Made by a program: the position numbers and the translations under genes. The notes beneath the pieces were generated by a model, which searched no databases, was not told the origin of the DNA, and saw only the letters and a list, made by a program, of their open reading frames with translations. Shown one piece after another: positions 188 to 48,399 of a stretch of 50,898 nucleotides of DNA. The DNA is from Phycisphaerae bacterium (GTDB lineage: Bacteria > Planctomycetota > Phycisphaerae > Phycisphaerales > SM1A02): NCBI GenBank assembly GCA_002862305.1, contig PKCS01000068.1, positions 1-50,898 of the forward strand, given 5' to 3'. The number at the start of each line of letters is the position of its first letter. Position 1 is the first letter of the stretch.

Positions 188-2941
188 TCAGAGCGAATTG
201 AGGAACCGGATCACCGACTCGCGTTCCGTGGGCGAGAGCTGGTTGTAGGCGGCCCGGGATGCCGAGGCCTCGCCGCCGTGGGCCTGGATCGCCTCCTCCA
301 GGGACCCGGCACGACCGTCGTGCATGAGCAGCAGCTCCCGATCGTTCTCCGCGAGGAGCTTGATGTTGCGACCGAGTCCCCAGAGCGGAGGGGTTCGGTA
401 CGGGGTGCCGGTGACGTCATGCATCTTCATGTCGGTATAGGGGCGAAGCACGATGTCGCGGAACTCGATCGGCGCGTCAGGGCGCGTCTTCTGGGTCACC
501 GAGTGGCAGGAGGAGCAGCCGACCTCGATGAACCTGGCCAGGCCCTCCTGGACCACGCCGTCGTCGTGTGCCGCGTAGCTTCGTGCGGGTACCGAGAGGA
601 ACTCGACGTACTTCACCAGTCGATCCAGGTCCCGTTCCGAGATCTGGTCGAAGGAACCGGGTGCGAGGCCGTGGTCCTCGACGAGGGCGCCCATCGTCTG
701 GTCGGCCACGGTGTCCACCGCCCCGTCCCAGCGAAGTCCCGCCTCCCGACCGGAGATCCATTCGAGGAGTCCGGTCCCGAACACCGGGGGAGGCACCCGG
801 GGGCCACGGGGGGTCTGCACCACCAGGCTTCCCCGACCGTCCCGGAAGTGGCAGTCACCGCAGGAGGTGCTTCCGATCGGCACCTCCCCGAGGATGTTCC
901 CGGGGTCGTTCCCGTTCTGTCGGTGCCGGACCCCGTGGAACAGGTGGTGCCCCTCGAGGAAGTCGTCGACGTCGTCCTCGTCGATCAGGGTGATGATGTG
1001 CTGGGTGAAGACCGCATCGTGCTCCATCTGCTTGTGGGATCCGTATCCCGGCAGCACCATGTTGGTGGTCGCCCGGCCGGCCGAGGCGTTCCTCGGGTCG
1101 CCGAAGGTGTCCAGACCCATCCCGATCACGTAGTTCTGGAAGGTGTTGTAGGTCTGGGCACCGGATCCCCCGGTGACGGCGGTGATCTCGTAGGTGACGA
1201 TGTTCCCCCATCCCCACTTGCCGGCGTATTCGCCCGCGCTCATGGCGTAGGTGGGCGGCGAGGCGTCGCCCTTCTCCATGTAGTCGATCCGGATGACGTC
1301 CGCGTTGTCGGAGTCACCATGGGGATGGACGGAGTTGGCGTTCCCACGGGTGAGCCGGGGGTCGATCAACAGTCCATCCGGACCATCGGTGAACACGGTC
1401 GAGAATCGATCGAGGTTCCGGAGCAGGTCTCCGTTGTGCTGGGCGTCGAAGACCGCCTCGGTGATGCCGTCCTGGGCGTGGGGATGCCGGAATCGCATCC
1501 AGTTGGCGCCCTCGGTGACCAGGACCGGACGATCGTCGGGATCGACCCGGTCCCCGGCGGTGGTGAAGAGCGCCGAATAGACGTACACGTCCCCGGGATC
1601 GTCGGTGGTGTTCCCCTGCTTGCGGTAGCGGACGAAGTAGTCGTAGTCACCGGCGTCGACGCAGGCCGGGGGCACCTCGGTGGTGCCCGACACCGCGACC
1701 TGGTGGAACACCACCTGGTTGCAGCTGCAGAAGAACTCGAATCCCGGCGCCCCCCCGGACTGGATGGCGACGACGTCGCCGTACCTGATGCCCACGGTCC
1801 GCAGGTCCTCGCCGAGGTCGATCGCGAAGCCATGCCCGTGTTCGGCACCGATCACCGCGGTGGGCAGGGTGGGACGCGGGTACATGACCCGCGGGACCTC
1901 GCCGCACGGGTCGGGCGGACACTCGGGGCAGGGTCCGCCGCAATCCACCCGGTCCTCGGATTGATTGAGGATCCCATCGTCGCAGGTGGGTGGAGGCGGT
2001 CCGTCCGCGATGTCGGCGAGACCCAGGTACATCGGGCAGTCACCGCCCCCCCACCGGCTCCAGACCTGGTAGCCCCCGGGCTGCAGGCCGCTCACTCGAA
2101 GGAGACCGTCGGCATCCGGAGCCTGGTGTTGGTAGTTGGCACCGCCGTCGAGGCTGAATTCGATCGACGACCGTCCCGGAGCGTCCTCGAAGGTGAAGGT
2201 GATGGCGCCATCCCGGGCACCAGCCAGCGATTCGTCATCCCAGGCGAACGTCGCGAAGGGATTCGGGGTGCCGTTGCAGATGACGTCGCAACCCGTGCAG
2301 GGGCCACCGCAGTCGGTCCCGGTCTCCGAGCCGTTCATCACCCCGTCGAAGCAGTTCGGGCACGGGGGACAGGCCGGCCCCCCACAGTCGATTCCCGATT
2401 CGTCGCCGTTCAGCATTCCGTCGGAGCAGGAGGGATTCAGCCAGCAGGACGTCCCCTCGCCGACCACCCCGTTGACCACGACGTTCGGGCCGCACTGCAC
2501 GCCGAGGCTGAAGGACTGTCCGGGCGCCAGTTGCACGGGCATCACGTAGAACTCGCCGTCCAGGTAGAAGTTGGGCGTGCATCCGTTGAACCCCGGACCC
2601 GTGCACATGTAGCAGGGACGGCCCAGCGAGACGTGGGAGTAGAGGTAGGATTCGCCACCGAGGCTCGAGACGCCGTACCCCTCGCACTGTCCGGGCACCA
2701 CCGGACAGTCCCCCCAGCGGGACAGCAGGTGGGTCAGGTCGGTTCCGGTCACCACCCCATCCCCGTCGAGGTCGTGCTCGGATCCCCCCCAATCCTCGAT
2801 CAGGATGGCGAGATCCGTCCCGGCAACGACCCGGTCGCCGTCGAGATCCGACAGGCACGACTGCGCGAATGCCGGGTGATGGTGCGGCAGGACAGCCACA
2901 CCGGTGAGGGCGAACACGAACAGCAGAAGTTTCGGAGTCAT
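188..2941 (-). CDS. secreted di-haem cytochrome c (DHOR/MauG-like) with N-terminal dockerin-like module
   Basis: Predicted 917-residue exported di-haem protein. A signal peptide (1-26, ending AFA) is followed at once by a paired calcium-loop dockerin-like module (about 29-78) bracketed by Cys, then three copies of a Cys-rich repeat of the form CxDGxxNxxExxxDCGGxCxxC, a beta-rich region, and a C-terminal di-haem region with CGDCH (694-698) and CSSCH (809-813). The end (HDGRAGSLEEAIQAHGGEA) matches the C-terminus of the DHOR thiol-oxidoreductase/di-haem peroxidase superfamily, and RWDG recalls MauG-type enzymes. The start at 2941 was chosen because the signal peptide begins there; the frame stays open much further upstream but runs antisense to a real gene. 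Substrate unknown. It is divergent from a second di-haem protein at 3323. Confidence 0.8.
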   Translation of the reverse strand: MTPKLLLFVFALTGVAVLPHHHPAFAQSCLSDLDGDRVVAGTDLAILIEDWGGSEHDLDGDGVVTGTDLTHLLSRWGDCPVVPGQCEGYGVSSLGGESYLYSHVSLGRPCYMCTGPGFNGCTPNFYLDGEFYVMPVQLAPGQSFSLGVQCGPNVVVNGVVGEGTSCWLNPSCSDGMLNGDESGIDCGGPACPPCPNCFDGVMNGSETGTDCGGPCTGCDVICNGTPNPFATFAWDDESLAGARDGAITFTFEDAPGRSSIEFSLDGGANYQHQAPDADGLLRVSGLQPGGYQVWSRWGGGDCPMYLGLADIADGPPPPTCDDGILNQSEDRVDCGGPCPECPPDPCGEVPRVMYPRPTLPTAVIGAEHGHGFAIDLGEDLRTVGIRYGDVVAIQSGGAPGFEFFCSCNQVVFHQVAVSGTTEVPPACVDAGDYDYFVRYRKQGNTTDDPGDVYVYSALFTTAGDRVDPDDRPVLVTEGANWMRFRHPHAQDGITEAVFDAQHNGDLLRNLDRFSTVFTDGPDGLLIDPRLTRGNANSVHPHGDSDNADVIRIDYMEKGDASPPTYAMSAGEYAGKWGWGNIVTYEITAVTGGSGAQTYNTFQNYVIGMGLDTFGDPRNASAGRATTNMVLPGYGSHKQMEHDAVFTQHIITLIDEDDVDDFLEGHHLFHGVRHRQNGNDPGNILGEVPIGSTSCGDCHFRDGRGSLVVQTPRGPRVPPPVFGTGLLEWISGREAGLRWDGAVDTVADQTMGALVEDHGLAPGSFDQISERDLDRLVKYVEFLSVPARSYAAHDDGVVQEGLARFIEVGCSSCHSVTQKTRPDAPIEFRDIVLRPYTDMKMHDVTGTPYRTPPLWGLGRNIKLLAENDRELLLMHDGRAGSLEEAIQAHGGEASASRAAYNQLSPTERESVIRFLNSL

Positions 2942-3322
2942 CTTCACGGGCTCCCAGCGAGCGAACCCCTGCCTTGGATGCTGTTCATCCGCGAACAGCC
3001 CGGCCGGGATTCCGGAAAGGTGCGAATACATGCGAAATGACGCGCGACGATCATTCATTCGCGATCCGTGCACCTTTGCACGAATCACCGCGCACCTTGC
3101 GGGATCGCCCGCACGCTGGTGCACGATTTGGACGTTTGTCGAGACCGGTGGTCGTACAGACGTCCTTGTCGATTCGACAGGAGGACTGCAGTCGTCTTTT
3201 GCACGAAACTGCCGGGAGACTGGATCAATCGATGGAGGAGATCGTAAGGTACTTACATCCAGGACCTGCTCCCGCGGACCTGGGAGGGGCTTCACCACGC
3301 AGGGGCGACGGAGCCGATTCCG
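2942..3322. other. divergent intergenic region between the two di-haem cytochrome genes
   Basis: 381 bp without a supportable gene. It must hold the promoters of both divergent genes, but I see no convincing -35/-10 pair. It contains an exact 10-nt direct repeat, TTTGCACGAA, at 3075-3084 and 3198-3207, a related TGCACGATTT near 3120, and an 8-bp inverted repeat, AAAGGTGC (3016-3023) with GCACCTTT (3070-3077). These may be operator sites for a shared regulator. Confidence 0.45.
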
Positions 3323-6106
3323 ATGACAACGAATGATTCCTCCGCCGTGCGCAGCCGGCTGCGCAGCGCTGTGTGCATCGCTGCCACGACGCTTCTCACC
3401 CTGCAGGCGGCCGGCCAGACACCCGACTACAGCGGTGAGGTGTGCCGGCTCGACGACCAGACCGTACTCCTGACCATCGACACCGAACCTTCGGTGCAGA
3501 ACATCCTCGTCTACCCCACTCCGCCGGGAGGGGGCTGGTACCTGGACCAGGTCTCCAGTGGAAGATTCCAACGAAGCTTCCAGGTACCCACCGGGACCGA
3601 GATGACCTTCGCCCTGCTGATCCAGAATCCCGCCCAGTACAGCTATCCGGAGCACTCGGCACGGGTCGATTCGGGATGCGTCCAGTTCGGCCGGGACGAC
3701 GTCATGCCACCACCGATCAGGGGATTCAAGCAGGCGATCGAAGCCGTGCCCGAGGGTGCACTGGTGACGTTCGAGGCGAGCCCGGGTGACTACAACGTTC
3801 CCGCGACGTCGTCGGTGAGGTTGCACCATCGAGTGGACGGGGGCGACCTGGTGGCCATGGACATGGAGTCGGACGGCGGACGGGGCTTCCACGCCCTGCT
3901 GCAGGGCGTGGAGGCCGGCATGCGGGTCGAGTACTGGTTCGACCAGACGATCGGCGATCAGCCGGTGGACAGCGTGCTCTTCGACCGGGTGCTCGGGGAG
4001 GAGGAGGAGGTCGTGGACTACCCGTTGCACGTCCGGGCCGCGGCGCGTTTCCGTGACCGCCACCCGAATGAATGGCGCTTCGATCACTACGTGGAGAACT
4101 ATGCGGGGGGCAAGACCTTCGAGATCCAGCTCACGGATCATGGAACGAGCCTGGACGTCAGGGTGGTGACCCACGAGGACGGGGGCCCGGAGCGGGTCGA
4201 CTTCAAGTACTACATCCAGAACAACCCCGAGGTGATGTGCGACCGCCCCCTCACGGTGATCAACCTCAACATGTATCCGGTCCCGGGGACCGACAACGTG
4301 TTCGAACAGCGGATACCGGACATCACGCCGGGCCAGATCATCGAATTCGACTTCACGCACCTCGCGGTCCCGAACCCCGCCGGGGGCACCTTCCAGTACT
4401 ACACCGAGTACTTCTACTACCACGCAGGGACCGGGCGACTCGGCGCGTCGACCGCGAACCCCCGGGCGACCGCCGCGGGGGACGCCTCGATCCCACTGGT
4501 CACCGCCCCCCGCTTCTCGTTCGCCCAGCATGCGAACAACCTCACGCTCGAGGAGCTGGACCGGTTCATGGAGGGCAAGGTCCGCTTCGAGACCGACCAC
4601 CTGGACGGCCTGGTGAAGAACTTCCCCACCACCTTCGACTGCTGCAGCGGTCCGATCGGGTACACCCTGGATCCCAGTCCGCATGCACTGACCACCGCCC
4701 TGGGTCCGAGGTTCAACGCGCCGAGCTGCATCGCCTGCCACATGATGGACGGTCGGGGGCGGACCCCGACCGGGAACGAGTCGAACCTGGACTCCCTCGT
4801 GATCCAGCTCGCCCTCGAGGGGGTGGACGACGACGGAGGCCCGATCCCCCACCCGTTCTACGGCCGTCAATTCGACACCAGCGCCGTCGGAGGTACGCAG
4901 CCCGAGGGCCGGGTCACGGTCGCCTACGAGGAGGTGACGGGAAGCTTCGACGATGGCACCACCTACACCCTTCGAAGGCCCACCTACGAGTTCAGGGACA
5001 CCGCCCACGGTTCGCCGGGGAGCAACCTCCCCGACGTGGACGGAACGCCGGGGTATCCGGGTGCCGTGCACTACTCGCCCAGGATCGCACCGATGCTCGC
5101 GGGCTCCGGTCTCCTGGAGGCCATCGACGAGGTCGAGATCCTGGCGCTGGCGGATCCGTTGGACGAGGACGGGGACGGAATCTCGGGCCGGCCGAACTGG
5201 GTCCACGACCTGGTCACCGACGAGGTCCAGATCGGCCGATTCGGCTGGAAGGCCGGCCAGCCGGGGCTGCTCCAGCAGACGGCCGTGGCCTACCAGCGGG
5301 ACCTCGGACTCACCTCGCCGTTGACGCCTCGGCACGATTGCGGGGACCTGGACCCGACGTGCACCGAGGAGGCGAGCACCGAATTGTCCGCCAGCGACGT
5401 CTCCCTGGTGGCTGACTACGTCGGGGGCCTGACACTCCCCCCTCGACGGAACTTCAGGGATCCGGAGGCGATCATCGGGATGCAGCTCTTCAAGAGGGCG
5501 AACTGCCAGGCCTGCCACGTCCCCAGCATCAGGACGCGTGCCGACCACGAGATCGCAGCCTACCGCGGTCAGGTGATCGAGCCATTCACCGACATGCTGC
5601 TCCACGACATGGGGCCGGACCTGGCCGACGGCTTCCGGGAATTCGAGGCGGCGGGGAGCGAATGGCGGACCGCCCCGCTCTGGGCGGCGGGCGAGGTCGG
5701 GCACGTCCTGGGAACGCCCGGTGAGTGCACCGACCCCTACTCGGGCGAGGGCACGCCCAACTACCTCCATGACGGACGAGCCAGGAGCCTGATGGAAGCG
5801 ATCCTCTGGCATGGCGGGGAGGCGGAGACCTCACGGAAGGCCGTGCTTGCGATGAACCAGCAGGAGCGCGAAGCGTTGCTCAGGTACGTGGCCTACCCCT
5901 TCGACGATCCCTCGCTGCACGATGAACCATTCGCGTCCTGTCCGGCGGACCTCGACGGGGACGGCCTCGTGGATGGACGGGACCTCGCGGTCCTGATCGA
6001 CGACTGGGGACAGCCCGGAGCGGGCGACCTGGATGGAAGCGGAATCGTGGACGGGCGCGATCTCACCCTGCTGCTGTCGGGATGGGGCGGCTGCGGGGAG
6101 GGCTGA
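3323..6106 (+). CDS. secreted di-haem oxidoreductase (DHOR, PF06537-like) with C-terminal dockerin-like module
   Basis: Predicted 927-residue exported cytochrome. An N-terminal signal region (about 1-35, hydrophobic, ending QAAGQ) precedes about 400 residues of beta-rich domains, then a recognisable DHOR core: CIACH (469-473) followed by MMDGRGR, the GSGLLEAIDEVEILALADP and DEDGDGISGRPNWV segments typical of the family, GRFGWKAGQPGLLQQTA, and a second haem site CQACH (728-732). The C-terminus carries a Cys-bracketed dockerin-like pair (from CPADLDGDG to the end). The ATG at 3323 follows an ACGGAG element. Family function is loosely defined (thiol oxidoreductase or peroxidase-like electron transfer); the substrate cannot be read from the sequence. 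It is a distant paralogue of the divergent gene, with the module at the opposite end. Confidence 0.85.
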   Translation: MTTNDSSAVRSRLRSAVCIAATTLLTLQAAGQTPDYSGEVCRLDDQTVLLTIDTEPSVQNILVYPTPPGGGWYLDQVSSGRFQRSFQVPTGTEMTFALLIQNPAQYSYPEHSARVDSGCVQFGRDDVMPPPIRGFKQAIEAVPEGALVTFEASPGDYNVPATSSVRLHHRVDGGDLVAMDMESDGGRGFHALLQGVEAGMRVEYWFDQTIGDQPVDSVLFDRVLGEEEEVVDYPLHVRAAARFRDRHPNEWRFDHYVENYAGGKTFEIQLTDHGTSLDVRVVTHEDGGPERVDFKYYIQNNPEVMCDRPLTVINLNMYPVPGTDNVFEQRIPDITPGQIIEFDFTHLAVPNPAGGTFQYYTEYFYYHAGTGRLGASTANPRATAAGDASIPLVTAPRFSFAQHANNLTLEELDRFMEGKVRFETDHLDGLVKNFPTTFDCCSGPIGYTLDPSPHALTTALGPRFNAPSCIACHMMDGRGRTPTGNESNLDSLVIQLALEGVDDDGGPIPHPFYGRQFDTSAVGGTQPEGRVTVAYEEVTGSFDDGTTYTLRRPTYEFRDTAHGSPGSNLPDVDGTPGYPGAVHYSPRIAPMLAGSGLLEAIDEVEILALADPLDEDGDGISGRPNWVHDLVTDEVQIGRFGWKAGQPGLLQQTAVAYQRDLGLTSPLTPRHDCGDLDPTCTEEASTELSASDVSLVADYVGGLTLPPRRNFRDPEAIIGMQLFKRANCQACHVPSIRTRADHEIAAYRGQVIEPFTDMLLHDMGPDLADGFREFEAAGSEWRTAPLWAAGEVGHVLGTPGECTDPYSGEGTPNYLHDGRARSLMEAILWHGGEAETSRKAVLAMNQQEREALLRYVAYPFDDPSLHDEPFASCPADLDGDGLVDGRDLAVLIDDWGQPGAGDLDGSGIVDGRDLTLLLSGWGGCGEG

Positions 6107-23933: not shown

Positions 23934-24557
23934 TCAGTCCTGGACTTCCTCGACGGCCACCGGATCGAGGGACTTCAGGAACTCGGCGGTACGGCTCCTG
24001 AAGTAGCGGGGGTCGCGAGCCTCGATGACCACGAAGAACCGGTCGTCGCTGGCGCGCCGGAAGCGCTTGCTGCGGAACAGCGGGTGGTACAGCTGTGGAA
24101 GCCCGTTGAAGGCGAACATGAGTCCGACGGTGGTGAGCGCCGAGAAGAGGATGGTCAGCTCGAACATCACCGGGATGAAGGCGGGCGTGGAGAGCAGGGG
24201 CTTGCCGGAGATCAGGTAGGGATACCCGGTGACCCAGACCACCGCCCAGAACGACCAGTCGCTCGCGTTCGTGAAGGCCTGCAGGATGAAGGCGGTGCAG
24301 GTGCCCGAAAGCCCCATGAAGAACACGATGATCGGCAGGATGGTCTGCCGGATCCCCATCGCCTTGTCGAGGCCGTGCACGGGGAAGGGCGTGCAGCAGT
24401 CCCACCACTTGTACCCCTCGTCGCGGACGCGTTCGGCGGCCTTCACGATCTGCGCCGGGGTCTCGAACTCGGCGATCAGTCCGTAGGGCTTGGGCTTGCT
24501 GGGATCAGAGGGCCTGGCGACCCGTGTCTTCTCGGGCTTCGTGGTGATGGTGCTCAT
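23934..24557 (-). CDS. actD: alternative complex III subunit D (DUF3341)
   Basis: 207 residues. The N-terminal soluble part ([44 protein letters not shown]) is the DUF3341 signature, followed by two membrane helices ([41 protein letters not shown]) and a C-terminal soluble stretch, [11 protein letters not shown]. Structural subunit holding the membrane arm of the complex. Overlaps the actC stop by 4 nt. Confidence 0.92.
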
Positions 24558-26013
24558 GACCGCACCTCCGCGGCAGGGGATTCGTGGGCTTCATCGTGCT
24601 GGTCCTCGCCGAAGTGGGGATCCGCCTGCGGCATCACGGCCTTCACCTCGGCGATCGCCACCATCGGCACGAAGCGGCAGAAGAGCAGGAAGAGGACCAT
24701 GAACAGTCCGAAGCTGCCGAAGAAGGTGCCGATGTCGACCCAGGTCGGGGTGAAGACGTCCCACGAGCTGGGGAGGAAGTCGTTGGCAAGGCTGGAGACG
24801 ATGATCACGAACCGCTCGAACCACATGCCCACGTTCACGAAGAGGCTCAGGATGAACATCATCGGGATCGAGGTCCGCAGCGCCTTGAACCAGAAGAGCT
24901 GGGGGGTGATCACGTTGCAGCTGACCATCAGGAAGTAGGCCCACCAGTACTGGCCGAAGGCGCGGTTGAGGAAGGCGAACTTCTCGTAGATGGCGCCGGA
25001 GTACCAGGCGATGAAGAATTCCATCGCGTAGGCGTAGCCGACCATGCATCCCGTGACCAGGATGACCTTGTTCATGTTGTCGAGGTGGCGCAGGGTGATC
25101 AGGTTCTTGAGGCCGAAGATCTCGCGCGCGGGGACCGCGAGGGTGACGACCATGGCGAATCCGGAGAACACCGCGCCCGCGACGAAGTACGGGGGGAAGA
25201 TCGTGGTGTGCCACCCGGGGAGCTGGCTGGTCGCGAAGTCGAAGGACACCACGGAGTGGACCGAGAGCACCAGCGGGGTGGAGAGGGCGGCGAGCAGGAG
25301 GTACGCCCGTTCGTAGCGATGCCAGTGACGGTTGCTCCCCCGCCAGCCGAGGGCGAAGGCCCCGTAGACCACCTGCTGGATCTTGCCCTTGGCCCGGTCG
25401 CGGATGGTCGCGAGATCGGGCACGAGGCCGGTGAACCAGAACAGGAGCGAGACCGTGAAGTAGGTGCCCACGGCGAAGACGTCCCACAGCAGGGGACTCC
25501 TGAACTGCGGCCACATCTCCATCTGGTTCGGAAGGGGGAAGAGCCAGTAGACGACCCAGACCCGGCCGACGTGGATGCCGGGGAACAGCCCCGCGCAGAT
25601 CACGGCGAAGATCGTCATGGCCTCGGCGAACCGGTTGATGCCCGTCCGCCACTTCTGGCGGAAGAGGAACAGGATCGCGGAGATCAGCGTGCCGGCGTGG
25701 CCGATGCCGACCCAGAACACGAAGTTGGTGATGTCGTAGGCCCACATCACCGGGTTGTTCAGTCCCCAGACACCGACTCCGGTGACGATCAGGTAGAGGA
25801 CGCAGAAGCCCAGCAGGCCCATCAGGCCCAGGGCTGCCGCGAAGCACACGTACCAGGCCATCGGCGTGCGACGGGCCTCAGCGACCTGGCACACCTGCTG
25901 CGTGACCTGGTTGAATCGGTCCATGTTGAGGACCAGCGGCTGCCGGACGCCCGGCTGGTCGTCGGTGTTGTCGGTGATCGGGCGGTTGACACCCGGCTCG
26001 AGGTTGATCGAGG

Positions 26014-26017
<4 letters not shown>
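24554..26017 (-). CDS. actC: alternative complex III subunit C (NrfD-like quinone subunit 1)
   Basis: 487-residue NrfD/PsrC-family membrane protein with about ten helices; segments such as [38 protein letters not shown] and [22 protein letters not shown] are typical of ActC. Carries the quinol-oxidising site and contacts the iron-sulfur part of ActB. Start overlaps the actB stop (ATGA). The N-terminal 45 residues are hydrophilic. Confidence 0.94.
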
Positions 26018-29448
<3,431 letters not shown>

Positions 29449-29469: not shown

Positions 29470-30156
29470 CTAGCGGTGGCAGGTCGAGCAGTTCTCGGAA
29501 GGGTTGATGTGGTAGAGATCGAGGACCTTGGCCCGTTCCTGCGCGATCTTCTCGCGCTCCTCCTTGAGCGCATCGCCGGTGAGGCCGAGGGCCAGGCCCC
29601 AGGTCATGTTCGTGACTTCGTCGACGGGCCGGAGGTTCGGCTCGGGGTTGCGGTGGCAGTCGAGGCACCAACCCATGCTCATCGGCTTGGCCTGGTAGAC
29701 CTCCTCCATCTGGTCGATGCGACCGTGGCAGGAGACGCACCCGACGCCGCGGTTCACGTGGGCCTGGTGGCTGAAGTACGCGTAGTCGGCGACGTGGTGG
29801 ACCTTGACCCATTCGATCGGCAGGCCCGTCTCGTAGCTGGCCAGCACGCCTTCGAGCTTGGGGCTTTCCGGCTTCACCAGGGTGTGGCAGTTCATGCAGG
29901 TCTGGGTCGCGGGCACCGCGGCGTGGCTGGCACGTTCGACGGTGTTGTGGCAGTACCGACAGTCCATGCCGAGCTCGCCGGCGTGCAGGGCGTGGCTGAA
30001 CGGGACGGGCTGCTCCGGCTGGTAACCGACCTCCAGGGTCTTCGGGCTGAATCCATACGCCACGAAGAACGCCACGTACAGTGGCGCGATGCCACCGACG
30101 ATCGCAAGCAGCGGAAGCAGTGCGTTCGACCAACGAGGAAACAGGAACCGACTCAT
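29470..30156 (-). CDS. actA: alternative complex III subunit A (pentahaem cytochrome c)
   Basis: 228 residues. One N-terminal membrane anchor (LLPLLAIVGGIAPLYVAFFVAYG), then five c-type haem sites: CRYCH 66-70, CMNCH 87-91, CVSCH 140-144, CLDCH 164-168, CSTCH 223-227, with extra His residues in between as distal ligands. This is the number and spacing expected for ActA. First gene of the operon; start ATG at 30156 behind GGGAG. Electrons from ActB are relayed through it to ActE and the oxidase. Confidence 0.94.
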   Translation of the reverse strand: MSRFLFPRWSNALLPLLAIVGGIAPLYVAFFVAYGFSPKTLEVGYQPEQPVPFSHALHAGELGMDCRYCHNTVERASHAAVPATQTCMNCHTLVKPESPKLEGVLASYETGLPIEWVKVHHVADYAYFSHQAHVNRGVGCVSCHGRIDQMEEVYQAKPMSMGWCLDCHRNPEPNLRPVDEVTNMTWGLALGLTGDALKEEREKIAQERAKVLDLYHINPSENCSTCHR

Positions 30157-30458
30157 GAGCCAGGCTCCCGGGAATTCGTTGAGTTCGTGCTATTTTTCAC
30201 AAGCGGGGATGCAGGAGACATTTCGTCACGGCAGAAAAGTTGGTGCGGTTCACGGGGTCAGGAGACTCTGGAGCAAATCGATGCACGACGTTGCAGACTT
30301 GCCGTCGGGAGGGACGACACGTTGTCATCGACAGGCAGCAATCAAACACTGCAATTGCTGAGCAGCCAATGATAGCCGGGAACGCGCGGTTCCGGCAACC
30401 AGACTGAGCTAGATACTGAGCGAGAATACGTCTCAATTAGTCGTGAAAAATGAACGTT
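30157..30458 (-). other. leader and promoter region of the act-cta operon
   Basis: 302 bp with no gene. It separates the stop of the APC-EIIA gene from actA on the same strand. It holds a TTGCCG/TATCAT promoter (see separate entry) and, if transcription starts near 30362, a leader of about 205 nt. Two bases into that leader lies a 7-bp hairpin, 30336-30342 with 30354-30360. No recognisable riboswitch. Confidence 0.5.
30369..30398 (-). promoter_or_regulatory. predicted promoter of the act-cta operon, with a dyad in the spacer
   Basis: On the reverse strand TTGCCG (30398-30393) is separated by 18 bp from TATCAT (30374-30369). The spacer and the end of the -35 form an imperfect inverted repeat, CCGGAAC..GTTCCCGG, which could be an operator placed between the promoter elements. 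Confidence 0.5.
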
Positions 30459-32546
30459 TTAGAGACGAAATCGTTCCTTCAAACCGGCGATTCCGTCTGC
30501 CTCGCCGATGACCGTCAGACGGTCATTCTCATGAAGCACCATGTCGGCCCGGGGGATGAGGGTCGCCGCCCCCCGGCGGACGATGGCCACGAGGCAGCCG
30601 GAGGGGAATCCGAGGTCCCGGATCCGACTGCCGATGAGCGCCTCGCATGGGGCGGAGGCCTGGGAAAGCACCAAGGTGAAGTACCGCTCATCCTGCAGGA
30701 GGTGCTCCCGCAGCTCCTCGGGACCGCTGGCGGCCAGCCAGTCCTGGATGAAGTCCTCGCGGTCGGCGGAGGCCGCGAGCTGGGCGAGCAGTCGCAGGTG
30801 CTCGGCGGGCTGGCCGCTGGGGCTCAGAAGGAAGAAGAGCGCGAAGATGGTGTGGGTCTGGCCCGCGGTCGTCACCGAGTTGACGCTGACCTTCATCCCG
30901 GTCCGGGCCCTGACGATCACCAGCTGGGGGGACTCGATCCCGTCGACCCGGAGGTGGGGAAGCGCGACCCCCGAGGCGACCGGGGTCGCGCCGCTCCGCA
31001 AGCCGTCCATGAAGCCCGTGACCAGCAGGTTCGAGTCGAGCGAGGCGGACTGGCCGAGCAGGTGGGAGGCCTCCCGCGAGATCGACTCGAAGTCGCTGGA
31101 GGGCTGGGCCTCGAGCACCGGGCAGGTGGCGATGATCTCGTCGAACTCGTCCGGGTCGTGCGCCGTTCGTTCCTTCAGGATCCCGCGCAACTCGTGGTCG
31201 AGCCCCTCGAAGCGCCGCTGCCCGAGGCGCTCGAAGACGTGGTAGATCGCTCCCTGTCGATCCACCTTGGGATTGGCGTAGGCGAAGTACCAGATCACGC
31301 CGATCACCACGAGACCGATCGCGAACAGGGTGGGCATGGTCCCCATCTCGGTGATGAGCCAGCAGGAACCGAAGATTCCGGCGAGTGGCACCCAGGGGTA
31401 GAGGGGGGTCCGGTAGGTGGGGTCGTAGGAGGGGATGTTGCTTTCCCGCATCACGATCACCGCGAGGCAGATCAGGGCGAAGAGCGCCAGCTGGAACGCG
31501 CTCGCGAGCTTGGCGATGGAGATCACGTCGAAGGCCGCGATGTAGAGGATCACCGCGGCCACGGTGATCAGCAGCGAACGAGTGGGGACCCCGGCCTTGT
31601 TGATGCCCTTGAAAACACTGGGAATCAAGTTGTCCCGGCTCATCGCCAGGGGGTAGCGGGAGGAGCTGAGGATCCCGGCGTTGGCGGCGGAGATGAACGC
31701 GAGGAGGGCCGCGATGGTGATCAGCACCAGGCCCGTGGAGCCCGCGAAGGAACCCGCGGCGTCGGCGAGGGGCGTGTAGCTGTCACTGAGCTCGGAGCCC
31801 GGGGTCACGCCCACGATCACGACGATCCCGAGGAGATACACCACGAACGCGACGCCCAGCCCGAGGAACACCCCGAGGGGGAGGTTCCGCTGTGGATTCT
31901 CGATCTCCTCGGCGAGGCTCGGCACCTTGCTGACCCCGACGTAGCTGATGAAGACCAGGCCCGCGGTGGCCAGGATGTCGGGTGCGCCCTTCTGGAAGAA
32001 GCCGTCGAAGCGCGAGAACTCGATGGAGAAGCTTCCCTGCACGAGGAACCAGCCGAGCAGCGCCAGCAGGAAGATCACCAGCAGGTTCTGGAAGCGGGTC
32101 GTCGCCTTGGTGCCCAGGAGATTGAGCAGGCCGAACAGCACCGCAAGGATGATCGCGATGAGTCGGATCGGCGAGTCCTCGAAGAACAGGCTCAGGTAGG
32201 CCCCCATGCCCACCAGCGCGAAGGATGCCTTGAGGGTCAGGGCCAGCCAGGTGCCGAGGCCGCCGATGGTCCCCGCGAGCGGGCCGAGGCTCCGATCCAG
32301 GAAGAAGTACGTACCGCCCGCCTTCGGCATGGCGGTGGCCAGTTCGACCTTGCAGAGCATCGGGGCGATCATCATCAGCGCGGCGATCGCGTAGGAGAGC
32401 ACCACCGCGGGGCCCGCGATGGAGTAGGCGAAGCCGGGCAGCAGAAAGATCCCGGCACTCAGCGTGGTGCCGGTCGCGACGGCGAACACCCCGAACAGGG
32501 TGAGGTCCTTGCGGAGGGCTCCTTCTTGTGGACTCGGTGAGCTCAT
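30459..32546 (-). CDS. APC-family amino acid permease fused to PTS EIIA and RCK-C domains
   Basis: 695 residues. The N-terminal half is an APC-superfamily transporter with about 12 helices (TGTTLSAGIFLLPGFAYSIAG is the family's first-helix glycine motif; PKAGGTYFFLDRSLGPLAG follows). Residues about 470-620 form a PTS EIIA type-2 (fructose/nitrogen-type) domain with the phosphorylatable His531 in GVALPHLRVDG. Residues about 625-690 resemble the TrkA-C/RCK-C ligand-binding domain (GFPSGCLVAIVRRG, LIPRADMVLHENDRLTVIG). ATG at 32546 preferred (AAGGG 5 nt upstream); a GTG at 32564 is possible. A TATACT box at 32609-32604 may be its -10. Substrate unknown. Confidence 0.85.
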   Translation of the reverse strand: MSSPSPQEGALRKDLTLFGVFAVATGTTLSAGIFLLPGFAYSIAGPAVVLSYAIAALMMIAPMLCKVELATAMPKAGGTYFFLDRSLGPLAGTIGGLGTWLALTLKASFALVGMGAYLSLFFEDSPIRLIAIILAVLFGLLNLLGTKATTRFQNLLVIFLLALLGWFLVQGSFSIEFSRFDGFFQKGAPDILATAGLVFISYVGVSKVPSLAEEIENPQRNLPLGVFLGLGVAFVVYLLGIVVIVGVTPGSELSDSYTPLADAAGSFAGSTGLVLITIAALLAFISAANAGILSSSRYPLAMSRDNLIPSVFKGINKAGVPTRSLLITVAAVILYIAAFDVISIAKLASAFQLALFALICLAVIVMRESNIPSYDPTYRTPLYPWVPLAGIFGSCWLITEMGTMPTLFAIGLVVIGVIWYFAYANPKVDRQGAIYHVFERLGQRRFEGLDHELRGILKERTAHDPDEFDEIIATCPVLEAQPSSDFESISREASHLLGQSASLDSNLLVTGFMDGLRSGATPVASGVALPHLRVDGIESPQLVIVRARTGMKVSVNSVTTAGQTHTIFALFFLLSPSGQPAEHLRLLAQLAASADREDFIQDWLAASGPEELREHLLQDERYFTLVLSQASAPCEALIGSRIRDLGFPSGCLVAIVRRGAATLIPRADMVLHENDRLTVIGEADGIAGLKERFRL

Positions 32547-32652
32547 GAAGGCCCTTACTCTCACGTGTCAGGTGATCCATCACCACTCGACGCGGACGCA
32601 TTCAGTATACGCGCAAAGGGGGGGATCCAGAATCGCGACCGGTCGGGGGATG

Positions 32653-42981: not shown

Positions 42982-44886
42982 TCACTTGCAGACGATCGCC
43001 CACCTGCCCAGCAGCAGCGCGAGGTCCGCACCGCCGACGATCAGGTCGCCGTCGATGTCCGCCACGGGGTCCGAGGTGCCCCAGGCCGCGAGCAGGATGG
43101 TCAGGTCGGCGCCCCCGATGAAGCCGTCCCCGTCCAGGTCGCCCTGGCAACCGGAGGGACCGTCCTCCTCGCCGATGACGAAGAACTGGTCACCGGGAAT
43201 GTCGGCGAAGTTCACCTGGCGGGCGTCCCCGAGGTTGCTCGAGCCCTCAAGACCGCCCAGCACCTGGTTGGAGATGAATTCCTGGCCGGCGCTGCTGATG
43301 AACGCGCAGACCGCGATCGATCCACCGTCGTAGCCCTCGAGCAGGTTGAGGGGGATGGAGACTTCGAGACCGGTCGTGACGTCCGAGCCGTCGGAGAGGC
43401 CGTCGCCGCCATCGACGCCGAGGATGTTGGAGTTGTCGAGTGCGACCCAGACCCCGTTGGCCCCGCGCACGATGTCGACTCCGACCTCGGCGCTGCCGAT
43501 GAACGCGCCACTGCCACCGCCGTTGGTGAGCACCTGCGCGATGTTGGCGAAGAGACTGACTTCCTTGTTGCCGCAGTTGGCCGAGAGCCAGAGGTCGGCG
43601 GCGAATTCCTCGTCGAAGGTGAGCCCGTTGCCCGATCCGTCGTCGCCCATGGTGTTGAGCCCGTTGAATCCCGCATCGGGGTTGTCCCCGCGCAGCCGGT
43701 TCTGGCCGCCCTCCGCATAGTCGAGGAAGATCTGGAGCTTGTTGAAGTTCGACTCGAGATTGCCGGCGAACAGCATGTTGAGCCGGTCGTCGTCGATGAA
43801 CCCGTAGGCGGCATCGAGCTCTGAACCGTTGCACTGCCCGACGAGGCCGTTGGTGGCGTTCCCGAAGGAGGTCTGGGTGTCCTGGACGGCGAGCGCGGGG
43901 CCGTATTCACCGCCACCATTCCCGTCGACGACCACGGACGGCTCGGGAACGACGGGATCGTCGTCGTCACCCGGCGCACAGGGGTAGTCGGTGGAGTCGC
44001 CGTCGAGGGCGACGAACTGGCAGCCCTCGAAGTCCCTGAAGTCCAGGGACCGGGGATCGCCAAGGTTCCCGGCCGGGGCCGGGAGCGAGCCAAGGACCTG
44101 GTTGGAGACGAAGGAGTGGCCGTTGTTGTTGATGAACGCGCACAGCCTGAACCCGTCGCCCGCGACGTAGTCAGGATCGATCAGCCCGACCGGGATGGCG
44201 ATCTCGATGCCGGTCAACACGTCTGCGGCGCCCTTGCCCGCGGCATCCTCCCCGCCGGAGACGCCGGCGACGTTGGAGTTGTCGATGGCGATCTCGATGC
44301 CCGTGTCGCTCAGCAGCCCTCCCAGCCCGTTCGGGAACTCGAGGCTGTTGCCGAGGAAGCCTCCGACGCCCCCACCGTCGCTGAGGATCTGGCTGGCGTT
44401 GGCGTAGATGGCCGGGTTCTCCCCGTTGCCGTCGTAGCCCATGCCGATGGTGAGGTAGTAGTTGGCGGTGAAGCCGGTGTCGAAGGTCAGCCCCCGGGTA
44501 CCGCTGAGCTGGCTGCCACCCATGTTGTTCAGCCCGTCGAAGTCCACGAAGGGATTGTCGTCGCGCAGCGTGCCCTGGCCACCGTCGCCCATGTCGATGA
44601 ACAGCTCGAGCTTGTTGAAGTTGGACTCAAGGTTGCCCGCGATGAAGATGTAGACGACGCCACCGGACACCCGGCCGAGGACCGCGTCGAGCTCCGACCC
44701 GTTCGAGTTGAAGACCTCGCCGAGGTCGTTGTCGCCGAACTGGGTGTTGACCTGCTGGACCGCGTCGAAGTTCGCGCTGGAGAACGTGGTCAGCTGCCCG
44801 TCCACGGGTTCGATATCGCCGCTTCCCACTGCGGTGGAGGCTGCAAGCAGGAGGGCGGAGGGAAGGCAGAACATGGTTCGGGACAT
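42982..44886 (-). CDS. secreted duplicated-domain protein with dockerin-like C-terminus
   Basis: 634 residues with a signal peptide (FCLPSALLLAASTAVGSG). The body is two homologous halves of about 270 residues. Each has NGSELDA, then an (I/F)AGNLESNFNKL core, a GGQxxLRxDNP loop, a GLNxMG segment, a G-x-EIAI/GLEVSIP strand, and SNQVLG. A Pro/Asp linker joins the halves. The end is a dockerin-like pair bracketed by Cys. No catalytic residues recognised; a structural or binding role on the surface is likely. ATG at 44886 with GGAG 9 nt upstream; an upstream start at 44928 lacks a signal sequence. Confidence 0.82.
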   Translation of the reverse strand: MSRTMFCLPSALLLAASTAVGSGDIEPVDGQLTTFSSANFDAVQQVNTQFGDNDLGEVFNSNGSELDAVLGRVSGGVVYIFIAGNLESNFNKLELFIDMGDGGQGTLRDDNPFVDFDGLNNMGGSQLSGTRGLTFDTGFTANYYLTIGMGYDGNGENPAIYANASQILSDGGGVGGFLGNSLEFPNGLGGLLSDTGIEIAIDNSNVAGVSGGEDAAGKGAADVLTGIEIAIPVGLIDPDYVAGDGFRLCAFINNNGHSFVSNQVLGSLPAPAGNLGDPRSLDFRDFEGCQFVALDGDSTDYPCAPGDDDDPVVPEPSVVVDGNGGGEYGPALAVQDTQTSFGNATNGLVGQCNGSELDAAYGFIDDDRLNMLFAGNLESNFNKLQIFLDYAEGGQNRLRGDNPDAGFNGLNTMGDDGSGNGLTFDEEFAADLWLSANCGNKEVSLFANIAQVLTNGGGSGAFIGSAEVGVDIVRGANGVWVALDNSNILGVDGGDGLSDGSDVTTGLEVSIPLNLLEGYDGGSIAVCAFISSAGQEFISNQVLGGLEGSSNLGDARQVNFADIPGDQFFVIGEEDGPSGCQGDLDGDGFIGGADLTILLAAWGTSDPVADIDGDLIVGGADLALLLGRWAIVCK

Positions 44887-44984
44887 GGGATTGGACTCCG
44901 AGTTCGTTTCTGGTCGGTGGTGAAGCACTCGTGCGATGACGAACCACTGCCCGGTATGTTCGCCGGGAGGGGTCTAACCGACCA

Positions 44985-45013
44985 AAAGTACGTGCCGGAT
45001 GCATTCCATTCAA
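44985..45013 (-). promoter_or_regulatory. predicted promoter of the duplicated-domain secreted protein gene
   Basis: On the reverse strand TTGAAT (45013-45008), 17-bp spacer, TACTTT (44990-44985). The leader would be about 90 nt. Confidence 0.4.
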
Positions 45014-45145
45014 GGTGTTTGTGGTTCGAATTGACCCAAATCACTCCCGACACGCTGTTTACGGCCAATAAGCGTCCCCTGCCGCTCCCCACCTCGCCGG
45101 GACCGGAGACGGGCCGCTCGGGGCCGACTACCGATGATCTAATCG

Positions 45146-45174
45146 TTGCCGCTGGTCAATACGCGGGATATTCT
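45146..45174 (+). promoter_or_regulatory. predicted promoter of the GH13 gene, positioned for a leaderless transcript
   Basis: TTGCCG (45146-45151), 17-bp spacer, TATTCT (45169-45174); the start codon GTG lies 6 nt after the -10 box. The -35 is identical to that of metK and of the act operon. Confidence 0.6.
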
Positions 45175-45180
45175 AGTTCC

Positions 45181-47238
45181 GTGGCGAACCTCACCCCCCA
45201 CATCCTCCTGTTGGGAACGTTGTCACTGTGCCCGGCATCGGTCTCGGTGGCGCAGGACGGTCCGTCGACGGTCCCCGGCGTGGGTGCCTACGTCTACGAC
45301 GACGGCACGAACGGGGTCAGCTTCAGGATCTGGGCGCCCAACGCGACCCAGGTCCACGTGCTGGGGTCCTTCAACTTCTGGAATGCAACGAGTCACCCGC
45401 TGTATCCGGAACCCGGCGGGTACTGGTCGGTGCGCGTTCCCTACGCGCTGCCCGGCAGCCAGTACAAGTTCCGGATCGACAACGGGTACCAGGTACTCGA
45501 ACGCAACGACGCACGTTCGTTCGACGTCACCAGCTCGGTCGGCAATTCCGTGGTCTACGATCTCGGGGCCTACGAGTGGCAGAACCCGGATGACCTCTCG
45601 ATCCCGTTCAACGAACTCGTGATCTACGAGATGCACATCGGGACGTACGGGGTCGATGACGGGTCGCCCGGAGTCGGGACCCTGGACGGGGCGATCGACC
45701 GACTCGACCATCTCGAGGAGCTCGGGGTCAACGCCATCGAGCTGATGCCCTTCTTCGAGTTCCCGGGCGGCAACTCCTGGGGGTACAACCCCGCCCACTC
45801 GTTCGCGGTGGAGTCGGAATACGGCACGCCTGACGACCTGAAGCGCTTCGTCGACGAGGCGCGCGGCCGTGGGATCGCGGTCATCGCGGACCTCGTCTAC
45901 AACCACCTCGGCCCCAACGACCTCGGCCTGTGGCAGTACGACGGGGACGAGGGCGGCGGCGGCGGCATCTACTTCTACAACGACGACCGAGCCAACACCC
46001 CCTGGGGCAACACCCGGCCCGACTATTCCCGTGGCGAGGTCCGGCAATGGATCCGGGACAACGTCTTCCACTGGTTCGACAACTTCCGGTTCGAGGGTGC
46101 GAGGGTCGACGGTACCAAGTACATCAGGATGACCAATCCGCCGTTCGGCGAGCTGCCGGAGGGCTGGTCGCTGCTGCAGTGGATCAACGAGGAGGTCAAC
46201 CAGCGAAGTCCCGGCAAGATCATGATCGCCGAGGACTTCGACAACAACGAGTGGATCAGCAAGGACGTGGGCGCGGGCGGGGCCGGCTTCGATTCCCAGT
46301 GGGATGCCAGGTTCTTCTACCCGGTGCGCAACGCGGTCCAGACGGTGGCGGATGCCGATCGCTCGATGTGGGACGTGAGAGACGCGATCATCTCGAGCTT
46401 CAACGGTAACCACACCCACCGTGTGATCTACACGGAGAGCCACGACGAGGTGGCCAACGGGCGGGCGAGGGTCCCGGAGGACATCTGGCCGGGGAATGCC
46501 GACAGCTGGTTCTCGAAGAAGCGCTCGACCCTTGCCGCGGGACTGGTGTTCACCTCCCCCGGGATCCCGATGCTCTTCCAGGGCCAGGAGTTCCTCGAGG
46601 ACGGGTACTTCCGGGACGACGACCCCCTCGACTGGAGCAAGGTGGACCGATTCTCCGGCATCCTAGAGATGTATCGCAGGATGATCTCGCTCCGCAGGAA
46701 CCTCACCGGGGTGACCCGCGGGCTCTCGGGGGGCAACACCAACGTCCACCACGTGAACAACAACGAGAAGCTGGTCGCCTTCCACCGCTGGGACCAGGGA
46801 GGCGTCGGAGACGACGTGGTGGTGGTCGCGAACTTCTCCGACCAGTACTGGAACAACTACCGGATCGGATTCCCCTCCGCGGGTCTCTGGAAGGCGCACT
46901 TCAACAGTGACGATTCGGCGTACGACGCGGACTTCGACGGCTACGGTGGATTCGACCTGCAGACCGAGCAGCTCCCTCGGGACGGCATGGGCCAGAGCGG
47001 CGTGGTGAAGATCGGACCGTATTCGGTGGTGATCTTCTCCCAGGGCGAGGAATCCTCGGAAGAGGAACCGCCGGCCGGGATCGTGGGCGACTACAACGAC
47101 GATGGCCTGGTCAACGGCTTCGACCTGGGGCTCCTCCTCGGGGTGTGGGGCATGGACAGCCAGCTCTACGACCTCAACGGCGACCTGCTGGTGAACGGGG
47201 CCGACCTCAGCATGCTGCTCGCCAACTGGACGAGATAG
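45181..47238 (+). CDS. secreted GH13 alpha-glucan enzyme, branching-enzyme/trehalohydrolase-like, with dockerin-like C-terminus
   Basis: 685 residues. Signal peptide (HILLLGTLSLCPASVSVAQ), a CBM48-type domain (about 40-115, GVSFRIWAPNATQVHVLGSF), a GH13 barrel, a C-terminal beta domain and a dockerin-like pair at the end. The four GH13 regions are intact: ADLVYNH with Asp237, GARVDGTKY with the nucleophile Asp310, IAEDF with the acid/base Glu351, ESHDEV with Asp422. The combination resembles GlgB and maltooligosyl trehalohydrolase rather than plain amylase, but export is unusual for those. GTG start was chosen because it begins the signal peptide and sits 6 nt after a -10 box. Confidence 0.87.
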   Translation: MANLTPHILLLGTLSLCPASVSVAQDGPSTVPGVGAYVYDDGTNGVSFRIWAPNATQVHVLGSFNFWNATSHPLYPEPGGYWSVRVPYALPGSQYKFRIDNGYQVLERNDARSFDVTSSVGNSVVYDLGAYEWQNPDDLSIPFNELVIYEMHIGTYGVDDGSPGVGTLDGAIDRLDHLEELGVNAIELMPFFEFPGGNSWGYNPAHSFAVESEYGTPDDLKRFVDEARGRGIAVIADLVYNHLGPNDLGLWQYDGDEGGGGGIYFYNDDRANTPWGNTRPDYSRGEVRQWIRDNVFHWFDNFRFEGARVDGTKYIRMTNPPFGELPEGWSLLQWINEEVNQRSPGKIMIAEDFDNNEWISKDVGAGGAGFDSQWDARFFYPVRNAVQTVADADRSMWDVRDAIISSFNGNHTHRVIYTESHDEVANGRARVPEDIWPGNADSWFSKKRSTLAAGLVFTSPGIPMLFQGQEFLEDGYFRDDDPLDWSKVDRFSGILEMYRRMISLRRNLTGVTRGLSGGNTNVHHVNNNEKLVAFHRWDQGGVGDDVVVVANFSDQYWNNYRIGFPSAGLWKAHFNSDDSAYDADFDGYGGFDLQTEQLPRDGMGQSGVVKIGPYSVVIFSQGEESSEEEPPAGIVGDYNDDGLVNGFDLGLLLGVWGMDSQLYDLNGDLLVNGADLSMLLANWTR

Positions 47239-47318: not shown

Positions 47319-47795
47319 ATGAGCATTCAGCCGAACTCGACCTCGATAGCGGATCTCGCGAAGCCGGGGAACCTGCTGGTGCCCCTCGAGGCAACGGACA
47401 AGCGATCCGCGATCGACCTCCTCGTGGACCATGTATGCGACGCCGAGAAGGTGGATGACGTGGAGGAGATGAAGCGCCTGGTCTGGGCGAGGGAGGATCA
47501 GCGCTCGACGGGGATCGGGAACGGACTCGCGATCCCCCACGCGAAGTCGGATGCGATCTCCCGGCTGATGCTCGGGATCGGAATCCTCGCGCAGCCCGTG
47601 GACTTCGACTCGATCGACGGCAAGCCAGCCAGGATGGTGGCGCTGCTTCTTTCGCCCAGCAGCGAGATTGCCGAGCACATCCAGGCGCTCGGCAAGATCA
47701 GTCGCATGATGAACGACGAGGGGTTCCGGGAGGCGGCCTTCGCCTGCACCGCCGCCCAGGAGCTGCGGGACCTGATCGTCGCGGCCTGCGACTGA
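47319..47795 (+). CDS. PTS EIIA type-2 domain protein (PtsN-like)
   Basis: 158 residues. Single EIIA fructose/nitrogen-type domain with the phosphorylatable His74 in GIGNGLAIPHAKSD. The C-terminus AEHIQALGKISRMMNDEGF is typical of PtsN. No other PTS component occurs in the window except the EIIA domain of the APC fusion, so a regulatory rather than sugar-transport role is likely. ATG behind GGAGGG, 5 nt spacing. Confidence 0.88.
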   Translation: MSIQPNSTSIADLAKPGNLLVPLEATDKRSAIDLLVDHVCDAEKVDDVEEMKRLVWAREDQRSTGIGNGLAIPHAKSDAISRLMLGIGILAQPVDFDSIDGKPARMVALLLSPSSEIAEHIQALGKISRMMNDEGFREAAFACTAAQELRDLIVAACD

Positions 47796-47832: not shown

Positions 47833-48399
47833 ATGTCCGAGCACCCCCATACGAACTCGCACGCGAACGAGGACGTCACGGTCCTCATCGACGAAGCCCG
47901 CATCGCGGAACGGGTCTCCGAACTCGCGCTCGAGCTGGAACGGGAACTGGGCGGCCTGGACGGGGACGTCACCCTGGTGCCGGTCATGACCGGTTCGATG
48001 CTGTTCGTGGCGGACCTGATACGCCAGCTGAGGATCCCGATTCGCATCGAGCCGGTGACCGTGCAGAGCTATCCGGGAACCGCGACCCACAGCCGGGGGG
48101 CCCGCCTGCAGACCCCGGTACCCGAGGTCCTGCGGGACAAGCACGTGCTGATCGTCGACGACATCCTGGACTCCGGCGGCACGCTGAGCGTCCTCCGGCG
48201 GCTGGTCGGCGCGGTCGGGCCGAAGTCGGTCCGCGCATGCGTGCTGCTCAGCAAGGACGTGCCGAGAAGCCACGAGGTGGAGTGCGAGCACTCCGGCTTC
48301 GACATCCCGGACGAGTTCGTGGTCGGCTACGGACTTGACTACGACGGGCTTCACCGGAACCTGCCCTACATCGGTGTCCTGTCGGGAGTCTCCGAATGA
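47833..48399 (+). CDS. hpt: hypoxanthine phosphoribosyltransferase
   Basis: 188 residues. Salvages hypoxanthine (and often guanine) with PRPP. The PRPP-binding motif is VLIVDDILDSGGTL; other family segments are VPVMTGSMLFVADLIRQL, VQSYPGTATHSRGA and FVVGYGLDYDGLHRNLPYIGVL. Full length. Stop overlaps the next start (ATGA). Confidence 0.95.
   Translation: MSEHPHTNSHANEDVTVLIDEARIAERVSELALELERELGGLDGDVTLVPVMTGSMLFVADLIRQLRIPIRIEPVTVQSYPGTATHSRGARLQTPVPEVLRDKHVLIVDDILDSGGTLSVLRRLVGAVGPKSVRACVLLSKDVPRSHEVECEHSGFDIPDEFVVGYGLDYDGLHRNLPYIGVLSGVSE

Follow-up and report, generated by a model that had tools for sequence, protein, structure and literature searches.

LacS of streptococci and lactobacilli is a non-PTS secondary transporter of the GPH family with a fused domain resembling EIIA-Glc. 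This domain is phosphorylated by HPr according to PMC10710835, in which a table gives the phosphorylated form as the inhibiting state. In E. coli, an EIIA of the PtsN type controls transporters having an RCK domain, acting in trans on cation transporters. PMC11808508 describes binding of unphosphorylated PtsN to the cytoplasmic tail of YcgO, which is thereby inhibited; the tail includes a putative RCK domain with a presumed activating role, and a CorC domain that PtsN is believed to contact. Binding of PtsN to TrkA is stated in PMC13104625. For Planctomycetes, PMC2405797 reports an enzyme I (EI) of the EI-R type and no PTS transporters.

The window analyzed here, the whole 50,898-nucleotide stretch of contig PKCS01000068.1 from a Phycisphaerae bacterium, encodes a protein in which related parts are combined differently (Table 1). 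Its intact minus-strand frame (32546..30459) gives 695 amino acids when read from the ATG at 32546, and a possible alternative GTG start at 32564 would lengthen it. Since the minus-strand frame matches known families, an antisense frame at 30450-32540 (+) was regarded as its mere shadow and set aside. The sequence-only reading had placed an APC permease, an EIIA with His531 and an RCK-C domain on one chain. All three domains were recovered above the Pfam cut-off of 27 bits, namely AA_permease_2 (PF13520, APC superfamily) with 150.5 bits, PTS_EIIA_2 with 40.3 bits and TrkA_C (RCK_C) with 46.7 bits, and H531 is the histidine of an ALPH motif. The closest solved chains were GkApcT (6f34/5oqt, E 6.4e-34) for the permease domain, Neisseria PtsN (2a0j, E 2.7e-6) for the EIIA segment and Thermotoga TrkA (3jxo, E 3.9e-5) for the last 80 residues with the RCK_C. 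The best NCBIfam model, TIGR00909 (2A0306), scored 205.8 bits against a curated cut-off of 556.8; therefore, the permease was filed as APC only, without a subfamily. An AlphaFold model of the protein (P0001) and homolog L009 had a mean pLDDT of 32.8 and was unusable, domain packing not being visible.

Like LacS, the protein joins a non-PTS secondary transporter to an EIIA-type domain. However, Pfam gave only APC-type models for its membrane part, the EIIA is of the PtsN/fructose type and an RCK_C follows. With its EIIA domain and histidine present it may at most work like LacS, and it is not a LacS-type member. Compared with the E. coli systems, the EIIA is placed in cis on an APC permease, and CorC, the likely contact there, is missing.

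Table 1. Coordinates of the fusion gene, its domains and key codons, and related genes.
Feature	Position	Strand	Basis and remarks
Gene of the APC-EIIA-RCK_C protein, 695 aa + stop	30459..32546	-	ORF, Pfam; AAGGG ~8 bases 5' of ATG
APC permease domain (AA_permease_2), residues 15-399	31350..32504	-	Pfam E 9.2e-44
Conserved cytoplasmic linker from permease to EIIA, residues 430-480	31107..31259	-	Alignment; A433 and D466 each 62/62
PTS_EIIA_2 (PtsN/fructose-type EIIA) domain, residues 491-617	30696..31076	-	Pfam E 3.9e-10
H531 codon, predicted phospho-acceptor	30954..30956	-	H of ALPH; H in 62/62
H583 codon, second EIIA active-site His	30798..30800	-	H in 61/62, X in 1/62; His also in stand-alone EIIAs
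TrkA_C / RCK_C domain, residues 636-693	30468..30641	-	Pfam E 2.9e-12
Stand-alone EIIA (H74, H120)	47319..47795	+	Pfam, 105.6 bits
Cytochrome / large protein / NrfD genes downstream of the permease gene	29470-30156, 26014-29448, 24554-26017	-	
Na_H_Exchanger-EIIA, then APC-EIIA-RCK_C genes of genome G046 (locus L085)	1264-3393 and 3426-5711	+	Pfam

Matches to the protein were found in 60 of the 301 genomes of the order, its own included (E<=1e-40), and in 81 of the 392 genomes of the phylum at E<=1e-30, many of the weaker ones being confined to the permease part. Part of the matching genomes supplied loci; 61 homologs were aligned with the protein, giving 62 rows, and ten divergent homologs were handled separately. 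The nearest named relative found was the MAG Planctomycetes bacterium TMED75 (77% identity). The C-terminal RCK_C was present in 52 of the 62 rows, while the other ten stopped after the EIIA. Among the ten divergent proteins, Pfam identified seven as APC-Usp-EIIA, one as APC-Usp and two as APC only. In one of the latter (L075) the Usp and EIIA were encoded in the overlapping next frame (257-1291 and 1143-2999, minus strand), which may represent one gene split in two, a pair of operon genes or a frameshift. APC-EIIA fusions are thus widespread in Planctomycetota and occur in three forms, with RCK_C (one clade), with EIIA alone and with Usp plus EIIA. The complete order of APC, EIIA and RCK_C was seen again at full length in independent genomes, so that neither an assembly join nor chance accounts for it. 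Tandem pairs of the permease gene were observed in G021:C17:397559-401936 and G085:C55:13379-17790.

A tree of 71 rows was computed on the permease part, with one short row left out. It had a midpoint root only and contained four long rows (L077, L076, L058 and L071). All 51 RCK_C rows fell on one side of a single branch (98/90), and the presence of RCK_C required one change, compared with a mean of 17.6 after shuffling. The rows with EIIA only adjoined the RCK_C rows, and the Usp-EIIA rows lay outside. This placement suggests that RCK_C was probably gained once, by a permease already carrying EIIA.

H531 was histidine in every row of the alignment and H583 in all but one, which had an ambiguous letter; the position of H583 corresponds to that of the second histidine in the stand-alone EIIAs. 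Fully kept columns numbered only four of the 139 in the EIIA region (H531, H583, L587 and A591), where the commonest residue had a mean share of 0.54; the columns of the three other histidines reached only 0.23-0.45. Both histidines were also kept in all seven APC-Usp-EIIA homologs. R533, which follows the active histidine, was kept in the first 31 rows but in 44 of the 62 overall. The EIIA match of the fusion was weaker than those of the stand-alone EIIAs (40 versus 102-106 bits), indicating that docking of HPr could have diverged.

The sequence-only reading had noted a stand-alone EIIA with His74 at 47319, which proved real, and had seen neither EI nor HPr, which holds for the window, as both genes of the genome lie on other contigs. 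The 2.67-Mb draft (103 contigs, 96.6% complete) contained one EI match (contig C15), a protein of 642 amino acids with all three EI Pfam domains and the active-site H247 in GGRTSHTS. One HPr match exceeded the cut-off (contig C9), with the active-site H15 in LGLHARPA, and a second on contig C44 was partial and under the cut-off. A genome lacking a PTS-type phosphoryl donor, raised earlier as the case against the proposal, is therefore not what was found. Pfam gave no GAF domain on the EI, which fits the EI-R type of PMC2405797. Three PTS_EIIA_2 domains were detected in the genome, those of the fusion, of the stand-alone gene in the window and of a gene adjoining HPr. PTS_EIIC (PF02378), the one EIIC sugar permease family searched, gave no match in the genome. 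HPr kinase (PF07475) had none either, a weak result since the same search also missed B. subtilis. B. subtilis possesses an HPr kinase.

Among other genomes with such proteins, EI was detected in 57 of 59 within the order and in 31 of 33 outside it (88/92 in total); the exceptions, two in each group, were all multi-contig drafts. It was, however, also present throughout the order, in 286 of 301 genomes. Being near-universal, EI is expected whatever the protein does, and its co-occurrence, which is compatible with the model but proves nothing, was dropped as support.

The protein has an intact three-domain anatomy with conserved EIIA histidines, and EI and HPr are encoded in its genome. The precedents of YcgO, TrkA and LacS, together with a gene pair in genome G046, favor control in cis by the state of the EIIA. 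That pair consists of an APC-EIIA-RCK_C gene and, 32 bases upstream of it, a gene fusing Na_H_Exchanger to EIIA, the Pfam scan of the exchanger frame having taken in its last 296 residues. With moderate confidence, drawn from sequence and from analogy, we propose that the protein is a non-PTS APC secondary transporter whose own EIIA gates it in cis through phosphorylation, RCK_C providing a second input. A phosphoryl group would pass from PEP through EI and HPr to H531, a transfer that we consider likely. The phosphorylation state of H531 would alter the packing of the EIIA on the cytoplasmic face of the permease, acting through the conserved linker and beside the RCK_C, and would thus change activity; an effect of the EIIA state on transport seems rather probable. 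As with PtsN and YcgO, the unphosphorylated EIIA would be the inhibiting form, a sign that we favor slightly by analogy and that is opposite to that of LacS. The RCK_C would be a ligand-sensing dimerisation domain serving as the second input, for which c-di-AMP or a cation are candidates; from its homology, the chances that it senses a ligand appear evenly balanced. Uptake would then track the PEP and phosphorelay state of the cell. It counts against this model that the PtsN contact of YcgO was mapped to CorC, not to RCK, and that the fusion protein has no CorC. Gating of uptake by the PTS, as the sequence-only reading had it, is a prediction that EI, HPr and the kept histidine pair support well, if indirectly; that a nucleotide or ion may also gate it by way of RCK_C is suggested by domain homology.

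The same EIIA might instead accept phosphate without gating its own permease, as a membrane-tethered signalling domain whose role is to report on transport or to bind other proteins, for instance regulators of K+ or nitrogen. EIIA-Ntr proteins do work through partner binding, according to PMC13104625, and the domain, found on APC, APC-Usp and Na_H_Exchanger proteins in the phylum, may be a portable anchor. However, the linker with its invariant A433 and D466 connects the EIIA with the permease, and all partners seen were transporters, which suggests local control, so that we consider mere tethering unlikely. Less probable still is that RCK_C is the only working sensor and that the EIIA, no longer signalling, serves as a structural spacer or in dimer formation. 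The modest match of 40 bits and the drift of R533 in the wider family would suit such a loss, but H531 and H583 are among the few invariant columns of the domain, and the ten homologs without RCK_C indicate that the EIIA persists without it. An EIIA on a transporter could also recall a PTS permease, with phosphorylation of the substrate during entry, a reading we find scarcely credible. The membrane part is APC and not EIIC, and Pfam reported no EIIB on the protein; with no PF02378 match in the genome either, an identity as enzyme II was rejected.

Within the favored model of gating in cis, RCK_C might sense c-di-AMP and make the protein a dual-input transporter (PEP/nitrogen plus c-di-AMP), a refinement that we regard as doubtful. 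A DAC (c-di-AMP synthase) domain is present in the genome and in 59 of the 61 carrier genomes, and RCK_C gave matches to the Na+/H+ antiporter-like entries 5f29 (E 0.18) and 4ys2 (E 0.25), structures that presumably concern c-di-AMP. These matches were not significant, however, and DAC was as common without RCK_C (9/10) as with it (50/51). DAC therefore does not discriminate between the two groups, and its co-occurrence was dropped as evidence for c-di-AMP.

The permease domain, for which GkApcT is the best solved match, differs from it at the residues tied to coupling and gating in PMC5803215. E115, K191 and D237 of GkApcT are replaced here by A102, L160 and S206, and of the residues counted in the 62-row alignment none was Lys at position 160 or Asp at position 206. 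K106, four residues past the position of E115, was Lys in all 61 rows having a residue there, and K207 was Lys in 47 of 62 rows and Asn in 12. Since the GkApcT residues are not kept, neither proton coupling nor substrate can be transferred from GkApcT; judged from family membership, the substrate is probably an amino acid or a compound related to one.

In a plasmid collection, haloarchaeal APC-Usp permeases (L082-L084) came closest in the permease domain (43-47%); they likewise have a C-terminal regulatory domain, but Usp instead of EIIA and RCK_C. In Haladaptatus (L084), a TrkA_N gene (2067-2495, +) overlaps the start of the APC-Usp permease gene (2492-4669, +), suggesting an RCK-type partner in trans. 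When the tail of the protein (residues 426-695) was searched against the same collection, a single record was returned, an Arthrobacter fructose PTS gene.

We found no description of an APC-EIIA(-RCK_C) fusion in the open-licence literature, and subscription reviews of PTS domains could differ. The parts are familiar, and within the open literature searched their combination is undescribed. The fusions give the transporter-less planctomycete phosphorelay a concrete candidate target and residue, H531. They would also extend the EIIA control exerted in trans on RCK-bearing transporters of E. coli to a switch built into the transporter itself. More tentatively, the PtsN-type EIIA may serve Planctomycetota as a portable cis module on secondary transporters (APC, APC-Usp and cation/proton antiporter), the RCK_C clade adding nucleotide or ion sensing. 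If this is true, one polypeptide would integrate the PEP/nitrogen state with a second messenger, c-di-AMP for example, and adjust amino-acid uptake accordingly.

The stand-alone EIIA gene (47319-47795, +) begins 80 bases after an alpha-amylase/CBM48 gene resembling glycogen branching enzyme (44116-47238, +) and is followed by a phosphoribosyltransferase gene (47833-48399, +), hinting at a link between PTS and glycogen. Its product could possibly compete for HPr~P. At locus L007 (7948-9178, +), genes for an S30AE protein (ribosome hibernation-type), an EIIA and an HPr stand in series, an arrangement resembling the proteobacterial rpoN cluster. Downstream of the permease gene, the minus strand encodes a cytochrome with five CxxCH motifs, a large protein of iron-sulphur/molybdopterin type and an NrfD protein, a set that we take to resemble alternative complex III. 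The cytochrome gene was present at 14 of the 61 homolog loci, most of which had flanks of only 1.5 kb.
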